Below, piece by piece: positions 1 through 63,635 of a stretch of 64,000 bases of DNA. This DNA comes from Bacteroidota bacterium (GTDB lineage Bacteria > Bacteroidota > Bacteroidia > B-17B0 > Aurantibacillaceae): NCBI GenBank assembly GCA_013298715.1, contig JAAFIQ010000009.1, forward strand, positions 1-64,000. Direction: 5' to 3'. The position numbers and the translations under genes were made by a program. Each line of letters begins with the position of its first letter. Position 1 is the first letter of the stretch. The notes under the pieces are model-generated. The model worked only from the letters and a program-made list of their open reading frames with translations. It was not told the DNA's origin and ran no database searches.

Positions 1-21
1 GTAGATATTTATGTAATTAAA

Positions 22-413
22 GGTGTTTATCAATAAGTCAAAGATATCCGCTGAAAAAGCGGACAGGCTATTTTGAACCTGCCCGCCGATAACAATCATT
101 TGCGTGGCAGGCGGGAGCAAATCACAACACCTTGCTCTCCTGTTAAGGCTAACATAACGGTGTTTATCAATAAGTCAAAGATATCCGCTGAAAAAGCGGA
201 CAGGCTATTTTGAACCTGCCCGCCGATAACAATCATTTGCGTGGCAGGCGGGAGCAAATCACAACAACCTCGTTAATGCTTGGTAATTCTGAATAGGTGT
301 TTATCAATAAGTCAAAGATATCCGCTGAAAAAGCGGACAAGCTATTTTGAAATGCTTTGCATTCAGCGAATACAAACAAAGCAACTAAAAAAATGAGCTA
401 AAACAAATCACAA
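22..413. repeat. Three-copy intergenic repeat array, 137-bp period
   Basis: Copies start at 22, 159 and 296, exactly 137 bp apart. Copies 1 and 2 are identical for 108 bp (22-129 and 159-266) and are followed by unrelated 29-bp spacers. Copy 3 keeps the first 56 bp with one mismatch (296-351) and a short 3' motif (404-413), but its middle is replaced by other sequence. Each copy holds a perfect hairpin with stem TCCGCT/AGCGGA and a 5-nt loop. Copies 1 and 2 also hold a GC-rich inverted repeat (CCTGCCCGCC facing GGCAGGCGGG). Copy 3 has a different small palindrome (AATGC-TTT-GCATT) in that place. The whole 1-546 stretch contains no gene that I can see. It looks like a REP-like, hairpin-bearing intergenic element. 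Confidence 0.85.
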
Positions 414-26782: not shown

Positions 26783-29700
26783 ATGAAACTAAATCTTATC
26801 GCACTTGCTCTTACCCTTGCTTTAACAACTCTAAAAGCGCAAACTACTCAAACCTTTAATTTTACTGGTGGTATGCAAACCTTCACTGTTCCTCCTTGCA
26901 TCACCTCAATTACGGTAGATGTTAGAGGTGCTCAAGGTGCTAATTCTCAGGATAAATTAATTACAAATGCCACTGGCGGTAGAGGAGGTAGGGTTACAGG
27001 TGTTTTAGCTGTAACTCCTGGTCAGGTTTATAATATTTTTGTTGGAGGAACAGGCAATATAACAGGCGCTGGCGGATTTAATGGTGGAGGAACAGGTGGC
27101 GTTTCGAGTGCTGGTAGTAGCTGTTTTGGTGGACCAGCAGCAGGCGGTGGTGGCGCTAGTGATATACGTTTTGGTGGTGTTGCTTTAGGAAATAGAATTG
27201 TGGTTGCCGGTGGTGGTGGTGGATCGGGAAGAGATTATTGTAATGGTACCTGCCAACCATGTGGATGCGGCGGGAACGGAGGTTCTGGCGGTTTATTAAC
27301 AGGTGTGGCAGGAAATGCAGCAAACAATTGTGGCTTTAGTTACCCAGGCACTAATGTAAACGGTGGACTAGGCGGAACACAAGTTGCTGGCGGAAATGGC
27401 GGTATTGGCGATGGCGGTGGTCCTTCTGGCCTTGCTGGAACTTTAGGAACTGGAGGCACAGGTGCAGGTGGAACTTATGATGTAGCGGGTGGCGGCGGTG
27501 GCGGTGGATACTACGGTGGTGGCGGTGGCGGTGGCGCTAGCAGTGGAAGTGGTGTTGGTGGCGGTGGCGGTGGTGGCGGTTCATCATTTCTTGGAACTCT
27601 GACTTCGGCGGTAACAACTCCTAGTGTTCAATTAGGAAATGGTGTAGTTACAATCTCATATTTAGCAACCGCATCAGTAGCTGTTGTTGCAACCAATACC
27701 CAAGTGTGCGCTGGAACATCTGTAACGCTAACAGCTAACGGAACCTTAACGTATACTTGGAACACAGGTTCTAATGCAAACAACATTGTAGTTACCCCTA
27801 CAACAAATACTACCTATACTGTTTCAGGCTCCAACGGTAGTACTTGTACTGCTAGTACGACTATTTTAATCGCTATTTCTGCCCCTCCTTTAGTTCCGGC
27901 CACTAATCCTTCTGTTTGTGCTGGATCAGCCATTAACCTAACTTCTAGTGGTGGTTCCACTTATAATTGGTCTGGTCCTTTAGGTTATTCTTCATCGGCT
28001 CAAAACCCTACAATTGTTAACGCTACAAACCCAATGTCTGGTGCTTATACAGTTACTGTAACAACAGCAGCTGGTTGCTCCAATACGGCAGTTTCTAATG
28101 TGACTGTTATTAATACACCAATTGCGAACTTAGTAAGCAATTCACCTGTTTGTATTGGTTCAACTTTAACTTTTACAGCAAGTGGGGGTGTAATTAATTT
28201 AACTGGACCTAATGGTTTTTCGAGTGCAGCAAGTAATCCATCAGTTATAAATGTAAGCGCATTAGCTAATGGAACATATAGTTTACTGGTTTCGGCAGGT
28301 ACTTGCACAGCCAGTACAACAACTCCTGTAGTTATTAATACATTACCAGTACCAACTTTATCAAGCAATAGTCCCGTTTGTGTAAATAAACCAATCGTAT
28401 TTTCAGGTGGCGGAGGTGTTTCCTATTCCTGGACGGGACCAAGCGGATTTACATCATCAGCTCAAAATCCAACAATAGTAAGTGCAAGTGCGGCAAATGG
28501 TGGTACATATAGCTTAACGGTAACCGGACCTAATGGATGCACTAGCTTTTCAACAACAGCAGTAAATGTAAATCCATTGCCAGTAATTGCGCCATTAACA
28601 AACCCAACAGTATGTTTAAACACAACAATTAATCTTGCTTCAAACGGAGGCACATCGTATTCTTGGAATGGTCCTCTAGGATTTACTTCACCCCTACAAA
28701 ATCCAAGTTTAACAAATGCAAGTATTCCTATGAGCGGTGCTTATACTGTAGTTGTAACAAGCGCACTTGGCTGTTCAAATTCTGCTGTTGCTAACGTTAC
28801 AGTGCTAAATACACCTACAGCTAATTTGCTCAGTAACTCACCGGTGTGTATTGGTTCTGTTTTATCTTTTACCGCAAGTGGGGGTACAATAAATTTAACT
28901 GGACCTAACGGTTTTGCCAGTGCGGTCAGTAATCCATCAATTTTAAATGTAAGTGCTTTAGCTAATGGTACATACACTTTATTAGTTTCTGCTGGTACAT
29001 GCACTGCAAATATTACTGCTGCTGTGGTTATTAACCCTTCGCCAGTACCAACATTATCTAGTAATAGCCCTGTGTGTATTAACAAACCTATTAATTTTAG
29101 CGGGAACGGTGGCGTTTCTTATTCTTGGTCAGGTCCAAATGGGTTTACATCGGCCTCACAAAATCCAACAATTGTAAGTGCAAGTGCCGCAAATGCAGGA
29201 ACGTATAGCCTAACAATAACAGGTGCGAATGGATGCACTGGATTTTCTACAACAGCGGTTGCAATTAATCCTTTACCTGTAATTGCACCATTAACTAACC
29301 CAACAGTGTGTTTAAATACAACAATTAACCTTAATGCCAACGGTGGTAATGCTTATGCTTGGAGCGGACCATTGGGCTTTACCTCGCTTTTACAAAATCC
29401 AAATTTAACCAATGCGAGTTTGGCAATGAGTGGAGCATATAGCGTAATTGTTACAAGTGCTGCGGGTTGTACTAATTCAGCAATTTCAAATGTAACTGTT
29501 TTATCCTTGCCAACACCAGCCATAACAAGCAACACGCCTTGTATAGGTAGTTCATTAAACTTAGGTGCTAGCGGTGGTGCAACATATACTTGGCTAGGGC
29601 CAAATGGATTTACAAGTAACCTCCAAAATCCAATTATAGCAAACGTTATAGCCTTGGCAAGTGGAAACTATAGTTTAATTGCTTCGGTAGGAACTTGTTC

Positions 29701-44667: not shown

Positions 44668-44749
44668 GCAGGTGTGGCGTAATTGGCAGCCGCGCCAGAC
44701 TTAGGATCTGGTGCCGAAAGGCGTGGGGGTTCGAGTCCCTTCACCTGTA
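44668..44749 (+). tRNA. tRNA-Leu (anticodon TAG)
   Basis: It is 82 nt long. The acceptor stem has six Watson-Crick pairs plus a G-T at 1-72. The anticodon stem CCAGA/TCTGG closes loop CTTAGGA with anticodon TAG. A long variable arm (TGCCGAAAGGCG) marks a class II tRNA. It reads CUA codons. CCA is not encoded. The serine recombinase gene lies just beyond its terminator. Confidence 0.93.
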
Positions 44750-44754
44750 CTAAA

Positions 44755-44794
44755 CCGGACTTTTCTAATAAATTTAGAGAGTCCGGCTTTTTTA
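44755..44794 (+). terminator. Terminator after tRNA-Leu
   Basis: CCGGACT pairs with AGTCCGG, followed by C and a run of seven T. Confidence 0.8.
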
Positions 44795-44838: not shown

Positions 44839-46314
44839 TCATTTACAATCGGGGGTTCGATAATGCTCTATTTTTGAATCATAGACCAAACCTTTAGGAA
44901 ACACCGTATTTTGAAAAATTTGTTTTTGGTAATAATCGCCCAAAGCCCAAACAGGTGCGAGATTGGCGGATAGCTTGCAGGTAAATTGGATCAATTCTTT
45001 AGGGTTCGATAATTTTTGGTTTAGCTTTTCAAGGTCACCCAAAAGCTTCTCTTTTCGAACCTTCATTTCAGTCGAAAATTCTTCGTAAATATCCAAACTT
45101 ACCGACCCAATTGCGTGTCTTTTGCGAAGATTATAAAACTCTTCCTCAACCTCGTTAAGTTTCAACGAAAGGGCTTTTTTCTCCCCTGTGTTGGTTTCTG
45201 TTAGGTTTTCCCAAGTATAGCGCAGTTGGATGGATAAAGGCTCAATTTGGTCGGAATCTACCGAATAAGTCGCCAATAGTTCTTTGAACTTATCGTGCAT
45301 AATATTGGTGCTGCGGTTTATCCTAATTCCGATTTTATTTACCTTGTAATAATACAGCCCTTTCTTTTTTACCAAGTAGCCTGTAAATGGCGCACCGCTT
45401 TCAGCATCTTTTACAAATACCTTTAATGGCAGATTATCATTGGCTTTGTTGGTTGTATAGCCCTCCGTTTTCTTTATTTCATTTGCTCGTAAAAATAAAT
45501 CCTCATCTATTAAAGCCGGATGCCTTCCTTTTATTACTTCACCGTTCAATAAATTGTGCGACATAAATCCGCAATAAAATGGATTTTTGAAAATCCCACC
45601 AAGCGTTTGTTTTGGTACGTTTAAACCCAAGTGTTTTAATTTTTCAATAATCTGTTCGTAGGTCATTGCATTGGCTCTCCAAATAAACGCTTGTTTAATT
45701 AGCTCTCCTTTTTCATTGATAACAATGGTTTGCGATTCCATTCCTTTTACAAATGAATATCCAGTTGGTGCATTTCCAATCCAATCGCCTCGCAGTAATT
45801 TCTCACGCATTCCGTCAATTGTTTTTTGCCTTCGTAAATCGTTATCGTATTTACCAAAAATGAATTGAATGTTTTGTTGCAATACTCCTGCATGGGAGTT
45901 GGTATCAATAGGCTGAGTAACAGCTATAATATTTACTCCGGTCTTTTTTAATTCTCCTGCTATATAAATAGCACTATCTCCGGTTCTGCTAAAACGGTCA
46001 AGACTATAAACTAAAATGAATGAAACTTTTTCTTTACTCGCTTTTACAAATTTGAGCATCCGGCTAAACTCTTTCCGTTCATCGCTTTTTGCACTTTCGT
46101 AAGTTCCACCAAAAAAACCTTTAACATCCAATTTGTTTTTAACAGCGTATTCTACACAATATTTTTTCTGCCATTCCAAACTTTGATTGGTATCCATTTG
46201 TTCTTTAGAACTTACCCTTGTATAGATCACACAATTTTGTATGCCTAAATCTTTTACTTCGTTGTTTTTGCCTTTGGCAAATTGTTTAAGCAACATCTCG
46301 TTTTCCTTCTTCAT
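44839..46314 (-). CDS. Large serine recombinase (site-specific integrase)
   Basis: Read from the ATG at 46314 it has 491 residues. This start has an ideal Shine-Dalgarno (AAGGAGG, 8 nt upstream). A GTG at 46323 would overlap that site. The resolvase domain starts NCVIYTRVSSKEQ, with the catalytic serine in RVS, and has the SLDRFSR motif. The recombinase domain (about 190-290) has PTGYSFVKG and FKNPFYCGFM motifs. A coiled-coil follows near 380-450. It has no second Cys pair of a zinc ribbon that I can see. It would integrate or excise the island. It is last in an operon with the 76-residue protein and the MerR-like protein. Confidence 0.93.
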   Translation of the reverse strand: MKKENEMLLKQFAKGKNNEVKDLGIQNCVIYTRVSSKEQMDTNQSLEWQKKYCVEYAVKNKLDVKGFFGGTYESAKSDERKEFSRMLKFVKASKEKVSFILVYSLDRFSRTGDSAIYIAGELKKTGVNIIAVTQPIDTNSHAGVLQQNIQFIFGKYDNDLRRQKTIDGMREKLLRGDWIGNAPTGYSFVKGMESQTIVINEKGELIKQAFIWRANAMTYEQIIEKLKHLGLNVPKQTLGGIFKNPFYCGFMSHNLLNGEVIKGRHPALIDEDLFLRANEIKKTEGYTTNKANDNLPLKVFVKDAESGAPFTGYLVKKKGLYYYKVNKIGIRINRSTNIMHDKFKELLATYSVDSDQIEPLSIQLRYTWENLTETNTGEKKALSLKLNEVEEEFYNLRKRHAIGSVSLDIYEEFSTEMKVRKEKLLGDLEKLNQKLSNPKELIQFTCKLSANLAPVWALGDYYQKQIFQNTVFPKGLVYDSKIEHYRTPDCK

Positions 46315-46516
46315 ATATTTCACCTCCTTGTATTTGTTTTATTTTTTGTTGTTGTTGCTTCTGCTTCATGTAAAGTTCATAAAACAGAATAGACAATTTT
46401 TCTAACGATTTAATTGTTTCTTCAGCGTGTTCGTCTGAATAGTTTTCAAAACCCTTGCAATTTTTTAATTCGGCAATGGTCAATCGCTTGTGTACTTTCT
46501 CCTTCTTCTCAGCCAT
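46286..46516 (-). CDS. Small coiled-coil protein of the recombinase operon
   Basis: The protein has 76 residues. It is Lys/Glu/Gln rich with a predicted helix (about 25-60) that would form a coiled coil. Its ATG is preceded by AAGGAGG (46527-46521) with a short 4-nt gap. It overlaps the recombinase start by 29 bp and begins 15 bp after the MerR-like gene, so the three genes are one operon. I do not recognise it. It may be an accessory factor or directionality partner of the recombinase. Confidence 0.7.
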   Translation of the reverse strand: MAEKKEKVHKRLTIAELKNCKGFENYSDEHAEETIKSLEKLSILFYELYMKQKQQQQKIKQIQGGEIYEEGKRDVA

Positions 46517-46531
46517 TGTGCCTCCTTACTC

Positions 46532-47512
46532 CTAAACAGTTATTACTTTAAATTTCCTTTTGCTTCTTGGATCATCATTTTCTACCAAAATTTTCTTCTC
46601 AACAAGTTTCTTAGGTTCGTCTTCCTTATCAGTTATTCGGAACTCATTATTTTTTTTGTCAATCAAAATAAACTCTCGGTATTCTTTTTCGCGAAGTATT
46701 CGTATGATGTCTTCTTGTGATGTTTTGCTTTTTGTTATTTCAAGTGGTTCTTGTTTTTTAGATTTGAAAAGGACAAATACTTTTTTATAATCACCTTCTT
46801 TAATATAATACAACAGCTTTCTTTCCTTTACAGTAAATAAGTGCAAACCATTTAAGTATTCAATTAAATAGTCTTCAATAATAAATTTGAAAATTAAATC
46901 GGTGATGTTTACTCTTACTTGAGAATGAAATTCTTTTTTATAAAGTAACTCTTTGGGATAATGATGTTCGTTCTCTTTAATAAAAGGAAACCACTCGCCA
47001 TCATTAAATACAATAAGCGAAACCGATTTTCGTGTTGCGATTGCTTCTGTGATTAAAATTTGTAGGTAATTAAAATTGAAAGGAAGTGAATCGTAATCCG
47101 CAGTTTTGTATTCTCCCGATTTAAAGAAGTTCATAAACTCTTCTTTTTCTTCGCCTTCGTAGTTTTTTAATACATCCATGTGGTTAACAAAATTCTCGAA
47201 CAACTCCTTCAAAGGCAATGGTTCGTAAATATCATCGGCTATCTTTTTTATAACCGGAAGTTGAATACCAAAGGATCGCAATTCATTAACTACTTTAATC
47301 CAAATAAAATCTACAAAACTAAATTTGCGATTACTTTCTTTTTTTTCTCGTGAAAAACGGATGATCCCCTTTTCATCCCAATGATTAAGCACACGGTAGT
47401 TTACTCCGGTATCTTTTGCGCTTAATTTTTCTTCGCACAGCAATTCATATAACTCTGCGAGTTTATCCAAGCTTTTGGTGTCTATAAACTCTTCTAATTT
47501 TACCGAAATCAT
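46532..47512 (-). CDS. MerR-like HTH protein of the recombinase operon
   Basis: Read from ATG 47512 (MISVKLEEFID) it has 326 residues. The longer frame to 47554 lacks a Shine-Dalgarno and overlaps the promoter. Residues about 30-95 form a MerR-type winged helix (VNYRVLNHWDEKGIIRFSREKK, followed by FSFVDFIWIKVVNELRSFGIQL). The C-terminal part (about 100-326) is unknown. The ATG has AAGGAGG 4 nt upstream. It probably controls the recombinase operon and perhaps the divergent gene at 47904. Confidence 0.78.
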   Translation of the reverse strand: MISVKLEEFIDTKSLDKLAELYELLCEEKLSAKDTGVNYRVLNHWDEKGIIRFSREKKESNRKFSFVDFIWIKVVNELRSFGIQLPVIKKIADDIYEPLPLKELFENFVNHMDVLKNYEGEEKEEFMNFFKSGEYKTADYDSLPFNFNYLQILITEAIATRKSVSLIVFNDGEWFPFIKENEHHYPKELLYKKEFHSQVRVNITDLIFKFIIEDYLIEYLNGLHLFTVKERKLLYYIKEGDYKKVFVLFKSKKQEPLEITKSKTSQEDIIRILREKEYREFILIDKKNNEFRITDKEDEPKKLVEKKILVENDDPRSKRKFKVITV

Positions 47513-47551: not shown

Positions 47552-47583
47552 CAAATGTAAGACAATTAAAACGATGATTCAAA
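47552..47583 (-). promoter_or_regulatory. Promoter of the recombinase operon
   Basis: On the minus strand TTTG (47583-47580), 20 bp, TACATTTG (47559-47552). The start would be near 47545, giving a leader of about 33 nt with a Shine-Dalgarno. Confidence 0.65.
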
Positions 47584-47721
47584 GCAAAAGTTTCAATATT
47601 TTTATCCAAATGGGCAAATAATTGCTAAAAATCAGTAAATCACGGAGTTAAATATTTATATTGATAATCAAGTATATAAGTCAACAATAATCAAAAATTG
47701 ATGCCGGAACGACCAAAACTA

Positions 47722-47752
47722 TTGTGGGATTAATTGGGGATGATTACATTTG
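47722..47752 (+). promoter_or_regulatory. Promoter of the winged-helix gene
   Basis: TTG (47722-47724), 20 bp, TACATTTG (47745-47752). The -7 box is identical to that of the divergent recombinase operon. The start would be near 47759, so the 11-bp repeat array lies in the leader. The 391-bp gap 47513-47903 thus holds two divergent promoters and the array. Confidence 0.65.
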
Positions 47753-47755
47753 CCG

Positions 47756-47839
47756 TAAGAACTCTATAATACGACATTAAGAACATTATAAGAGAAGTGT
47801 TAGAACAATGTAGTGTAACATTAAGAACTCCGTAAGAAA
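47756..47839 (+). repeat. Helically phased array, TAAGAAC-type motif every 11 bp
   Basis: TAAGAAC occurs at 47756, 47778 and 47822, and TTAGAAC at 47800, exactly 22 bp apart. Midway between them lie weaker copies: TAATACG (47767), TAAGAGA (47789), TAGTGTA (47811) and TAAGAAA (47833). So eight motifs lie 11 bp apart, one per helical turn. This looks like a cooperative protein-binding site. It lies 65 bp before the gene at 47904. Confidence 0.75.
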
Positions 47840-47903
47840 CCTATTGCGGAGCAATTGAAAGCACATTGGTTTTAGCTCAAAACAACAATAAACTGGTAGT
47901 AAA

Positions 47904-48419
47904 ATGAAAGATTTAGTAATGAAATACCTCGAAAGATTCGTTTTGGATTCACAATCCAAGAGTGAATTGATAAATAAGATAATGGAATTACAGGAACGTG
48001 ATAAAGAATGGTTTGATAAATACTCTAACCTCTACAAATCCAAGAAAGAAAGCGAGAAGCGATTAGAAGAACGTATCAAAGAATATGCGGATCGAATGGA
48101 AGAGGTGTTTAAAATGCACGCACAGGGGCAAGTAATAACTGAAGAATACAAACGTTTGGTTGATTTAAAACTGGGTAACACCTATAACATAAATGCTACA
48201 TGGATTGATAAGATTGTTTTTGTTTTAAAAGCTGCCGGAAGACCGATGCGATCTGCTGAAATTATACAAGTGCTTTTAAAGAACGATATGACCTTTCGCA
48301 CTCTCACCGATCATCAAAAAGGGTTATCGGCTCATTTAACAAAGGCATTAAAATACGGTCGAATTATCGGCACAAAACAAAAAGGTCAGAATGGATATGT
48401 GTTTTCTTTGCCGGAATAA
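47904..48419 (+). CDS. Coiled-coil / winged-helix protein of the island
   Basis: The protein has 171 residues. The N-terminal half is Lys/Glu-rich and predicted to be coiled coil (about 25-85). The C-terminal half (about 95-171) resembles a HARE-HTH/winged-helix fold: WIDKIVFVLKAAGRPMRSAEI, then LTKALKYGRIIGTKQKGQNGYVF. A DNA-binding or regulatory role is likely but not proven. It lies alone between the recombinase operon and the secreted SH3 gene, and has its own promoter. Confidence 0.68.
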   Translation: MKDLVMKYLERFVLDSQSKSELINKIMELQERDKEWFDKYSNLYKSKKESEKRLEERIKEYADRMEEVFKMHAQGQVITEEYKRLVDLKLGNTYNINATWIDKIVFVLKAAGRPMRSAEIIQVLLKNDMTFRTLTDHQKGLSAHLTKALKYGRIIGTKQKGQNGYVFSLPE

Positions 48420-48481
48420 ACATTAAACACACATTTTAATATATTGATGATCAATACGTTGTAATTATTTTTAGCATTTAT

Positions 48482-63273: not shown

Positions 63274-63579
63274 TTATCTTCTTCTGCGATTATAACTTCC
63301 TGAGCTGTTGTAATTGTAGTTATAACTTTTGTTTGAATTATAATTATAAGAAGTGTTATAATTATAGTTGTAATGTTTTGTTCCAACTGTGCCAGTATAT
63401 GGATTGACATTTGGATAAGTACTAAAATTATCTCTTACAGTGTTATTCTGAACTGTTCGATAATGTCCCTGAACGTATGTTCCGTTTGATTTGTAGTAAC
63501 CATTTACGTGAGTTACATTTTGCGAGAAAACAACAACTCCTATCAGTGTCATTGCTAAGGTTAAAATCATTTTTTTCAT
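63274..63579 (-). CDS. Small secreted Tyr/Asn-rich protein
   Basis: The protein has 101 residues. A signal peptide ends near residue 20 (VVVFSQ). The middle has a motif seen in many small exported bacterial proteins: GYYKSNGTYVQGHYRT, then NVNPYTGTVGT. The tail is low-complexity Tyr/Asn/Ser and ends in RRRR. It is the first gene of the minus-strand operon and is preceded by element P2. Both P1 and P2 therefore drive a secreted protein with a Tyr/Asn-rich stretch. Confidence 0.75.
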   Translation of the reverse strand: MKKMILTLAMTLIGVVVFSQNVTHVNGYYKSNGTYVQGHYRTVQNNTVRDNFSTYPNVNPYTGTVGTKHYNYNYNTSYNYNSNKSYNYNYNSSGSYNRRRR

Positions 63580-63602: not shown

Positions 63603-63635
63603 ATCAATTGATAATCAACTCATGATCAGGTAACC
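63603..63635 (-). promoter_or_regulatory. Bipartite promoter-like element P2
   Basis: On the minus strand GGTTACC (63635-63629), 16 bp, ATCAATTGAT (63612-63603), then GAAACCAAT. The start codon is 23 bp further. It matches P1 at 48482-48514 in both boxes and in spacing, and points towards it. Similarity continues upstream for tens of base pairs. Confidence 0.65.

Follow-up and report, generated by a model that had tools for sequence, protein, structure and literature searches.

What is the function of a run of direct repeats that lie exactly one DNA turn apart in the leader of a small gene, and which protein reads them? The question arises from a genomic island in a contig of a Bacteroidota bacterium, of which the first 64,000 nucleotides (the window) were analyzed. 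A first-pass annotation of this DNA described TAAGAAC-like motifs at 11-bp steps ahead of a gene for a winged-helix protein, here called p47. It proposed that they form a cooperative operator for this protein or for a neighboring MerR-like protein, or else an accessory site for the island's recombinase. The features on which the argument depends are as follows.

44668-44750, plus strand: tRNA-Leu(TAG), the site of island insertion
44747-44766: attL repeat GTACTAAACCGGACTTTTCT, with a second copy at contig position 65622
44839-46323, minus strand: large serine recombinase (Resolvase and Recombinase domains by Pfam)
46286-46516, minus strand: conserved small protein encoded in the recombinase operon
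46532-47512, minus strand: MerR-like regulator of 326 aa with an N-terminal MerR HTH
47552-47559, minus strand: -7 box TACATTTG of the divergent MerR-small protein-recombinase operon, conserved in relatives as CAAATGTA
47661-47671, no strand assigned: palindrome TTGATAATCAA, upstream of the p47 promoter and separate from the array, kept in many islands of the window's type
47722-47752, plus strand: p47 promoter, with a -33 TTG at 47722-47724, a 20-nt spacer and the -7 box TACATTTG at 47745-47752
47755-47842, plus strand: 11-bp-phased array of eight units, found by direct reading and kept in relatives
47843-47875, plus strand: three extra units of a different word that stay in the 11-bp phase of the array, ATTGCGGAGCA / ATTGAAAGCAC / ATTGGTTTTAG
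47904-48419, plus strand: p47, 171 aa, a coiled coil (residues 19-86) and a winged helix (95-168) in the predicted structure

The sequence that follows the tRNA gene recurs at contig position 65622, where 20 bp are identical and 69 bp match at 86%. The island is thus about 20.9 kb long and ends 1.6 kb past the window. Relatives of its recombinase-MerR-p47 block adjoin tRNA-Leu genes of several anticodons. A search for the empty site via the clpP flank in 14 genomes of the same genus found none and was uninformative, since neither a tRNA-Leu gene nor left-flank synteny is present near clpP in these genomes. Between 49121 and 61931, the island carries genes for a sigma-70-like factor (49121), TPR-CHAT proteins (50876 and 57726), a papain-like peptidase (55430) and an FRG-domain protein (56798, PADLOC candidate PDC-S15), along with gene 49693. 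This cargo looks like an uncharacterized signaling or defense cluster. Toward the right end of the island, 5' of a minus-strand gene that is Fic-like by eye, there are three direct repeats of GTGTnWnAATTAGG with a spacing of about 23-24 bp (L051:1374-1434, contig C46 about 65374-65434). Another repetitive element, a 137-bp tandem repeat of 2.4 copies with 91% matches and GC-rich inverted segments, occupies window positions 20-351.

Direct reading of the array gives, in order, the units GTAAGAACTCT / ATAATACGACA / TTAAGAACATT / ATAAGAGAAGT / GTTAGAACAAT / GTAGTGTAACA / TTAAGAACTCC / GTAAGAAACCT. Strong words (TAAGAAC three times and TTAGAAC once) begin at 47756, 47778, 47800 and 47822, in 22-bp steps, and weaker copies are interleaved between them. 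Both the exact 11-bp step and this alternation had been described in the first-pass annotation, and both are borne out. Its count of eight motifs holds for the 11-bp slots, but unit 6 matches only two of seven motif positions, so that seven copies are recognizable in the array and one slot is degenerate. The degeneracy of this slot recurs in nearly all relatives with eight units. A simple TAAGAAC score with an 11-bp step is 16.0 for the array and at most 7.5 in 2000 first-order Markov shuffles of the intergenic DNA. A motif-free, position-independent scan of the 147-kb contig also ranks 47755 as the top 11-bp-phased locus if a GGTGGC simple repeat at 27486 is set aside. Across relatives, lags of 11 and 22 bp are raised 3' of the array as well, more weakly than within it, and the three extra units at 47843-47875 may belong to a single nucleoprotein site together with the array.

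The first motif lies directly after the -7 box of the p47 promoter, as the annotation had it, with a distance of 3 bp. Because the box ends so close to the first motif, the array is expected to start at or near the p47 transcription start, which we presume from the Bacteroidetes promoter consensus. Related islands preserve this box as TACATTTG, TACCTTTG or TACTTTTG in most cases. The array had further been placed between divergent promoters with identical boxes. The two boxes do share the sequence TACATTTG, but the array is not midway between them, since the box on the MerR side is about 195 bp away.

An alignment of related islands had been proposed as a check on the 11-bp phase. Both the TAAGAAC words and the exact 11-bp phase are kept in related recombinase-MerR-p47 islands, as seen in about 18 different intergenic regions. 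These relatives have 4 to 8 units, which mostly begin directly after the -7 box. In one of them (L016), the MerR-like protein is only about 35% identical and p47 56% identical to its counterpart in the window, and the array words are nearly unchanged. Two other relatives extend the phase in different words. In L045, five units upstream of the TAAGAAC units (TTGATTTCC-like) and several downstream continue the 11-bp step, and in L039 the word TATAGAAATGG carries it on downstream. In these stretches (L045:4500-4850 and L039:465-650), the words beyond the TAAGAAC units are wholly different, as if a filament spreads over other sequences.

The predicted structure of p47 (mean pLDDT 82) consists of an N-terminal helix, the coiled coil and the winged helix. 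The best 50 structural matches of residues 95-171 or so (VIA-align, Z 8.9-10.7) are generic DNA binders such as linker histone, PadR, Fur and forkhead proteins. No convincing Pfam or PHROG family was found for p47, and neither a MerR nor a Rep match was obtained with Pfam. Weak Pfam, PHROG and PADLOC matches (DFF40, Saf4, JetA and others) fall mostly over the coiled coil and were discarded, and searches against PDB sequences returned coiled-coil matches only (E >= 0.014). By eye, the intergenic regions of the islands contain no conserved DnaA box, which, like a Rep initiator gene, would mark an iteron replication origin. In a profile search of the bacterial family, 33 of 87 genomes have p47-like genes; a search at the level of the order yielded the same 87 genomes. 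In a sample of the phylum, only 3 of 395 genomes have such genes, so the p47 family is largely confined to this bacterial family.

Remote p47 homologues, with about 25% identity, are found in other kinds of islands. The window represents type 1, with a serine recombinase and a MerR-like gene. In type 2, the p47-like gene is divergent from an XRE-M78 regulator gene and is followed by cargo, and type 3 consists of a tRNA gene, a tyrosine integrase gene, the array and a p47-like gene. In two further loci (L060 and L077), a remote p47 gene accompanies other serine recombinases. Leaders of the remote genes in the tyrosine-integrase and XRE-M78/defense-cargo islands also contain 11-bp arrays, which are built from other words. 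Repeat scores for 52 p47-like leaders average 7.6 at lag 11 and 8.2 at lag 22 compared to about 3.3 at other lags, and 519 other leaders of the same loci average 3.4 at lag 11. When type 1 is left out (35 leaders), the values are 7.2 at lag 11 and 6.2 at lag 22.

When each locus is scanned over its full 9-20 kb, the top-scoring 11-bp array is found no more than 330 bp upstream of the p47-like start in 34 of 43 cases, although many of these loci are related and do not represent independent events. The nine exceptions are mostly truncated or marginal p47 matches (L118, L122, L125-L128); no array accompanies the truncated or very weak matches L118, L122 and L125-L129. Among the remaining exceptions, lag 11 is the top lag in the leader of L062 and the second in that of L068, and L061 has no convincing array. 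The marginal match L127, which comes from another family, has a leader periodicity of 12 bp about 120 bp upstream of 9653. In a scan with position weight matrices, each locus has a single array, which is always the one at p47, with 29-58 bits in the leader and at most 15 bits for the next best match.

The arrays contain 4-10 units at 11 bp. While this period is constant, the word differs by p47 subfamily: TAAGAAC, TATGTTATT, GATATAGA, GGTAGAAACAA, CCAATG/CCAAGG or GCATGGCTCT. Word similarity follows p47 identity closely (Mantel r of 0.85 overall and 0.76 when type 1 is excluded; in neither case did any of 2000 permutations reach the observed value), although common descent of adjacent DNA may account for part of this co-variation. 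The MerR-like gene and the recombinase type change from one type of island to the next, and p47 alone is the constant partner of the 11-bp arrays. As the sole gene common to all types of array loci, it is the best candidate for the binder.

The pairing of an array with the same kind of small DNA-binding-protein gene suggests that p47 coats its own promoter. On these comparative grounds, the array is probably the cognate operator of p47, to which the protein would bind cooperatively to repress the promoter in an autoregulatory switch. The winged-helix option of the first-pass annotation therefore fits the comparative evidence well; its MerR option does not. We infer p47 as the binder, the cooperativity of binding and repression as the outcome from the arrangement of the loci. 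One winged helix would occupy each 11-bp unit, and possibly one p47 dimer each 22 bp, in which case the alternation of strong and weak words perhaps reflects the dimer. The resulting nucleoprotein filament would run along one face of the DNA for about eight helical turns and block RNA polymerase at the p47 promoter. Besides the loci without an array and the possible effect of common descent on the words, two further points count against this model. Direct repeats need head-to-tail contacts, which are not an obvious property of a symmetric coiled-coil dimer. In type 3 islands, no TAnnTTTG box is found near the array, so that repression of p47 is more tentative there.

The predicted filament could block a promoter on either side of the array, and such blocking fits both arrangements that are seen. 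Type 1 leaders have the -7 box upstream of the array, whereas in several leaders of type 2 (L059, L063, L065 and L067) the box follows the array. This difference also bears on the alternative that the repeats work at the level of the leader RNA, either as a site for RNA-protein contact or as an element that controls translation. In type 1, an array downstream of the -7 box is probably transcribed, as such an element would have to be. In the type 2 leaders with a downstream box, however, the array would lie outside the mRNA, and the change in box position indicates that the array acts as DNA. Folding of five leader RNAs gave z-scores from +0.04 to -1.98 and no shared structure, and the exact helical-turn step points to duplex DNA. 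An RNA element is accordingly very improbable. Binding by the MerR-like protein has more in its favor, in that its gene adjoins the array and is divergently transcribed, Pfam assigns it a MerR-type HTH, and the best structural matches of its model are CvkR, NmlR and other MerR regulators. Moreover, the MerR-type protein BldC sets a precedent for head-to-tail polymerization on direct repeats (PMC5859096). The protein is absent, however, from tyrosine-integrase and XRE-M78 islands that have 11-bp arrays. Only the integrase and p47 flank the array in type 3 loci, and in type 2 loci the XRE-M78 regulator and a protein of about 80 aa take its place. The divergence of the MerR-like protein in L016, where the array words stay, likewise argues against it, and the conserved palindrome at 47661 is a more usual MerR-type target than the array. 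These comparisons make it unlikely that the array is an operator for the MerR-like protein.

It is similarly unlikely that the array serves as an accessory site in recombination, at which p47 would act as an excisionase or recombination directionality factor (RDF) and build a filament in the manner of lambda Xis or 186 Apl. Tandem repeats with a one-turn spacing are bound by RDFs, and a second role of Apl is promoter repression (PMC7498355). In addition, p47-like genes adjoin recombinase genes in types 1 and 3 and in L060 and L077. Against this role, the array is about 3 kb from attL in the window and about 1.7-1.8 kb from the tRNA gene in type 3. The window contig holds both attL and attR, and no second array is present near either one (36.4 bits for the array compared to 13.3 bits for the best other match). 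The distance to attL and the lack of a second array in this contig disfavor the recombinase site proposed by the annotation. For type 3 loci, a search by the 3' end of the tRNA found no attR within the stretch covered. Least probable of all is a centromere-like site similar to parC or tubC, with p47 as an adaptor for segregation or clustering of the island after excision. A single iteron array directly 5' of its own adaptor gene, with autoregulatory overlap, would be in keeping with such a site, as would a winged-helix adaptor like TubR (PMC5016525). However, the p47 islands are chromosomal, and no ParM, TubZ or ParA-like motor gene was recognized among those window island genes that were scanned with Pfam or among the neighbors that were read in types 2 and 3.

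The palindrome TTGATnATCAA was considered as a further component of the p47 system and rejected, as it is missing from most type 2 and type 3 leaders. Three of its four copies in the 147-kb contig fall inside the island (47661-47671, 48444-48454 and 63608-63618), where they are located before p47, before the next gene (48536) and near minus-strand cargo at 63579. It is a possible target of the MerR-like protein or of a host factor.

Autoregulation by p47 would give a cooperative switch over its own gene and, where p47 comes first, over a defense operon as well. In type 2, the p47-like gene is followed by cargo on the same strand with gaps of mostly 34-101 bp (195 in L067). Defense matches were obtained in the cargo of the four type 2 loci that were scanned: L073 has GajA and GajB, which make up a Gabija pair, L063 has a GajB-like helicase, and L067 and L076 have a TIR-pAgo partner and restriction-modification genes. 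In types 1 and 3, the gene after p47 often has the opposite orientation, and cargo control by the array is therefore not a general feature. Three type 2 loci (L063, L075 and L076) have defense-type cargo and, beyond the XRE-M78 regulator, a conserved set of genes that is virus-like by eye. This set includes a protein of about 600 aa with a GVDCDCYTVF motif and a partner of about 240 aa; two of these proteins were scanned and have no Pfam match. The MerR-like protein of the window, used as a query against viral contigs, gave no confirmed match.

No paper that describes the combination of p47 and its array was found in the open-access literature. The p47 proteins thus appear to be a family, undescribed in the literature searched, whose arrays, unusually, keep a constant step and vary the word. 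A broader and more tentative proposal is that p47 and its leader array form a self-contained, undescribed filament module with a private 11-bp word in 4-10 copies. Such a module might have been carried into three unrelated kinds of islands, its spacing fixed and its word diversified, as a general switch over island genes that include phage-defense cargo.

Helically phased direct-repeat operators are known for a few proteins, among them Xis, Apl and BldC. The closest working analogue of the p47 array is that of Apl from phage 186. Between the promoters pR and pL, both of which it represses, Apl binds cooperatively to direct repeats that number seven and follow one another in 10-11-bp steps (PMC7498355). 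Both systems place direct repeats one DNA turn apart in the promoter region of an integrative element. Apl has five further repeats at attP (PMC7498355), whereas the window island lacks an array at either att end. Moreover, p47 is a 171-aa protein with a coiled coil and a winged helix, and its islands include those with large serine recombinases. BldC binds 9-bp direct repeats head-to-tail (PMC5859096), and RdfS forms filaments of winged HTH domains (PMC11963761). Both are comparable to the model for p47 in their winged helix, head-to-tail assembly on DNA and variable number of sites. They differ in that their domains are of the MerR/Xis type and BldC repeats measure 9 bp, while p47 has no MerR match by Pfam and carries a long N-terminal coiled coil.

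Other repressors and adaptors share the genetic setting of p47. RptR is encoded by the first gene of a defense island and represses itself through three 9-bp repeats that hold the palindrome TAGCTA (PMC12255303), and BrxR, a repressor from phage-defense islands, binds inverted repeats (PMC9122601). Both are small repressors that are encoded with defense genes and bind repeats at their own promoters, as is proposed for p47; in type 2, p47-like genes head same-strand cargo, with defense matches in the four loci scanned. The p47 arrays are distinguished by 4-10 units at 11 bp with subfamily-specific words, and the protein family is unrelated by Pfam and PADLOC. In ParR/parC and TubR/tubC, a direct-repeat array lies upstream of the gene for an adaptor that represses itself, and TubR is a winged-helix protein (PMC5016525); the p47 islands differ in being chromosomal and in having no recognized motor NTPase among the genes scanned or read. 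By analogy, the role of p47-like proteins in type 2 would resemble that of RptR, with an operator that is built like Apl's. Arrays of this kind point to a common control element for island-borne defense genes in this bacterial family, and little is known of the control of such genes according to the literature. The family as a whole would offer a natural experiment on how a filament-forming regulator shifts its specificity while its geometry stays the same.
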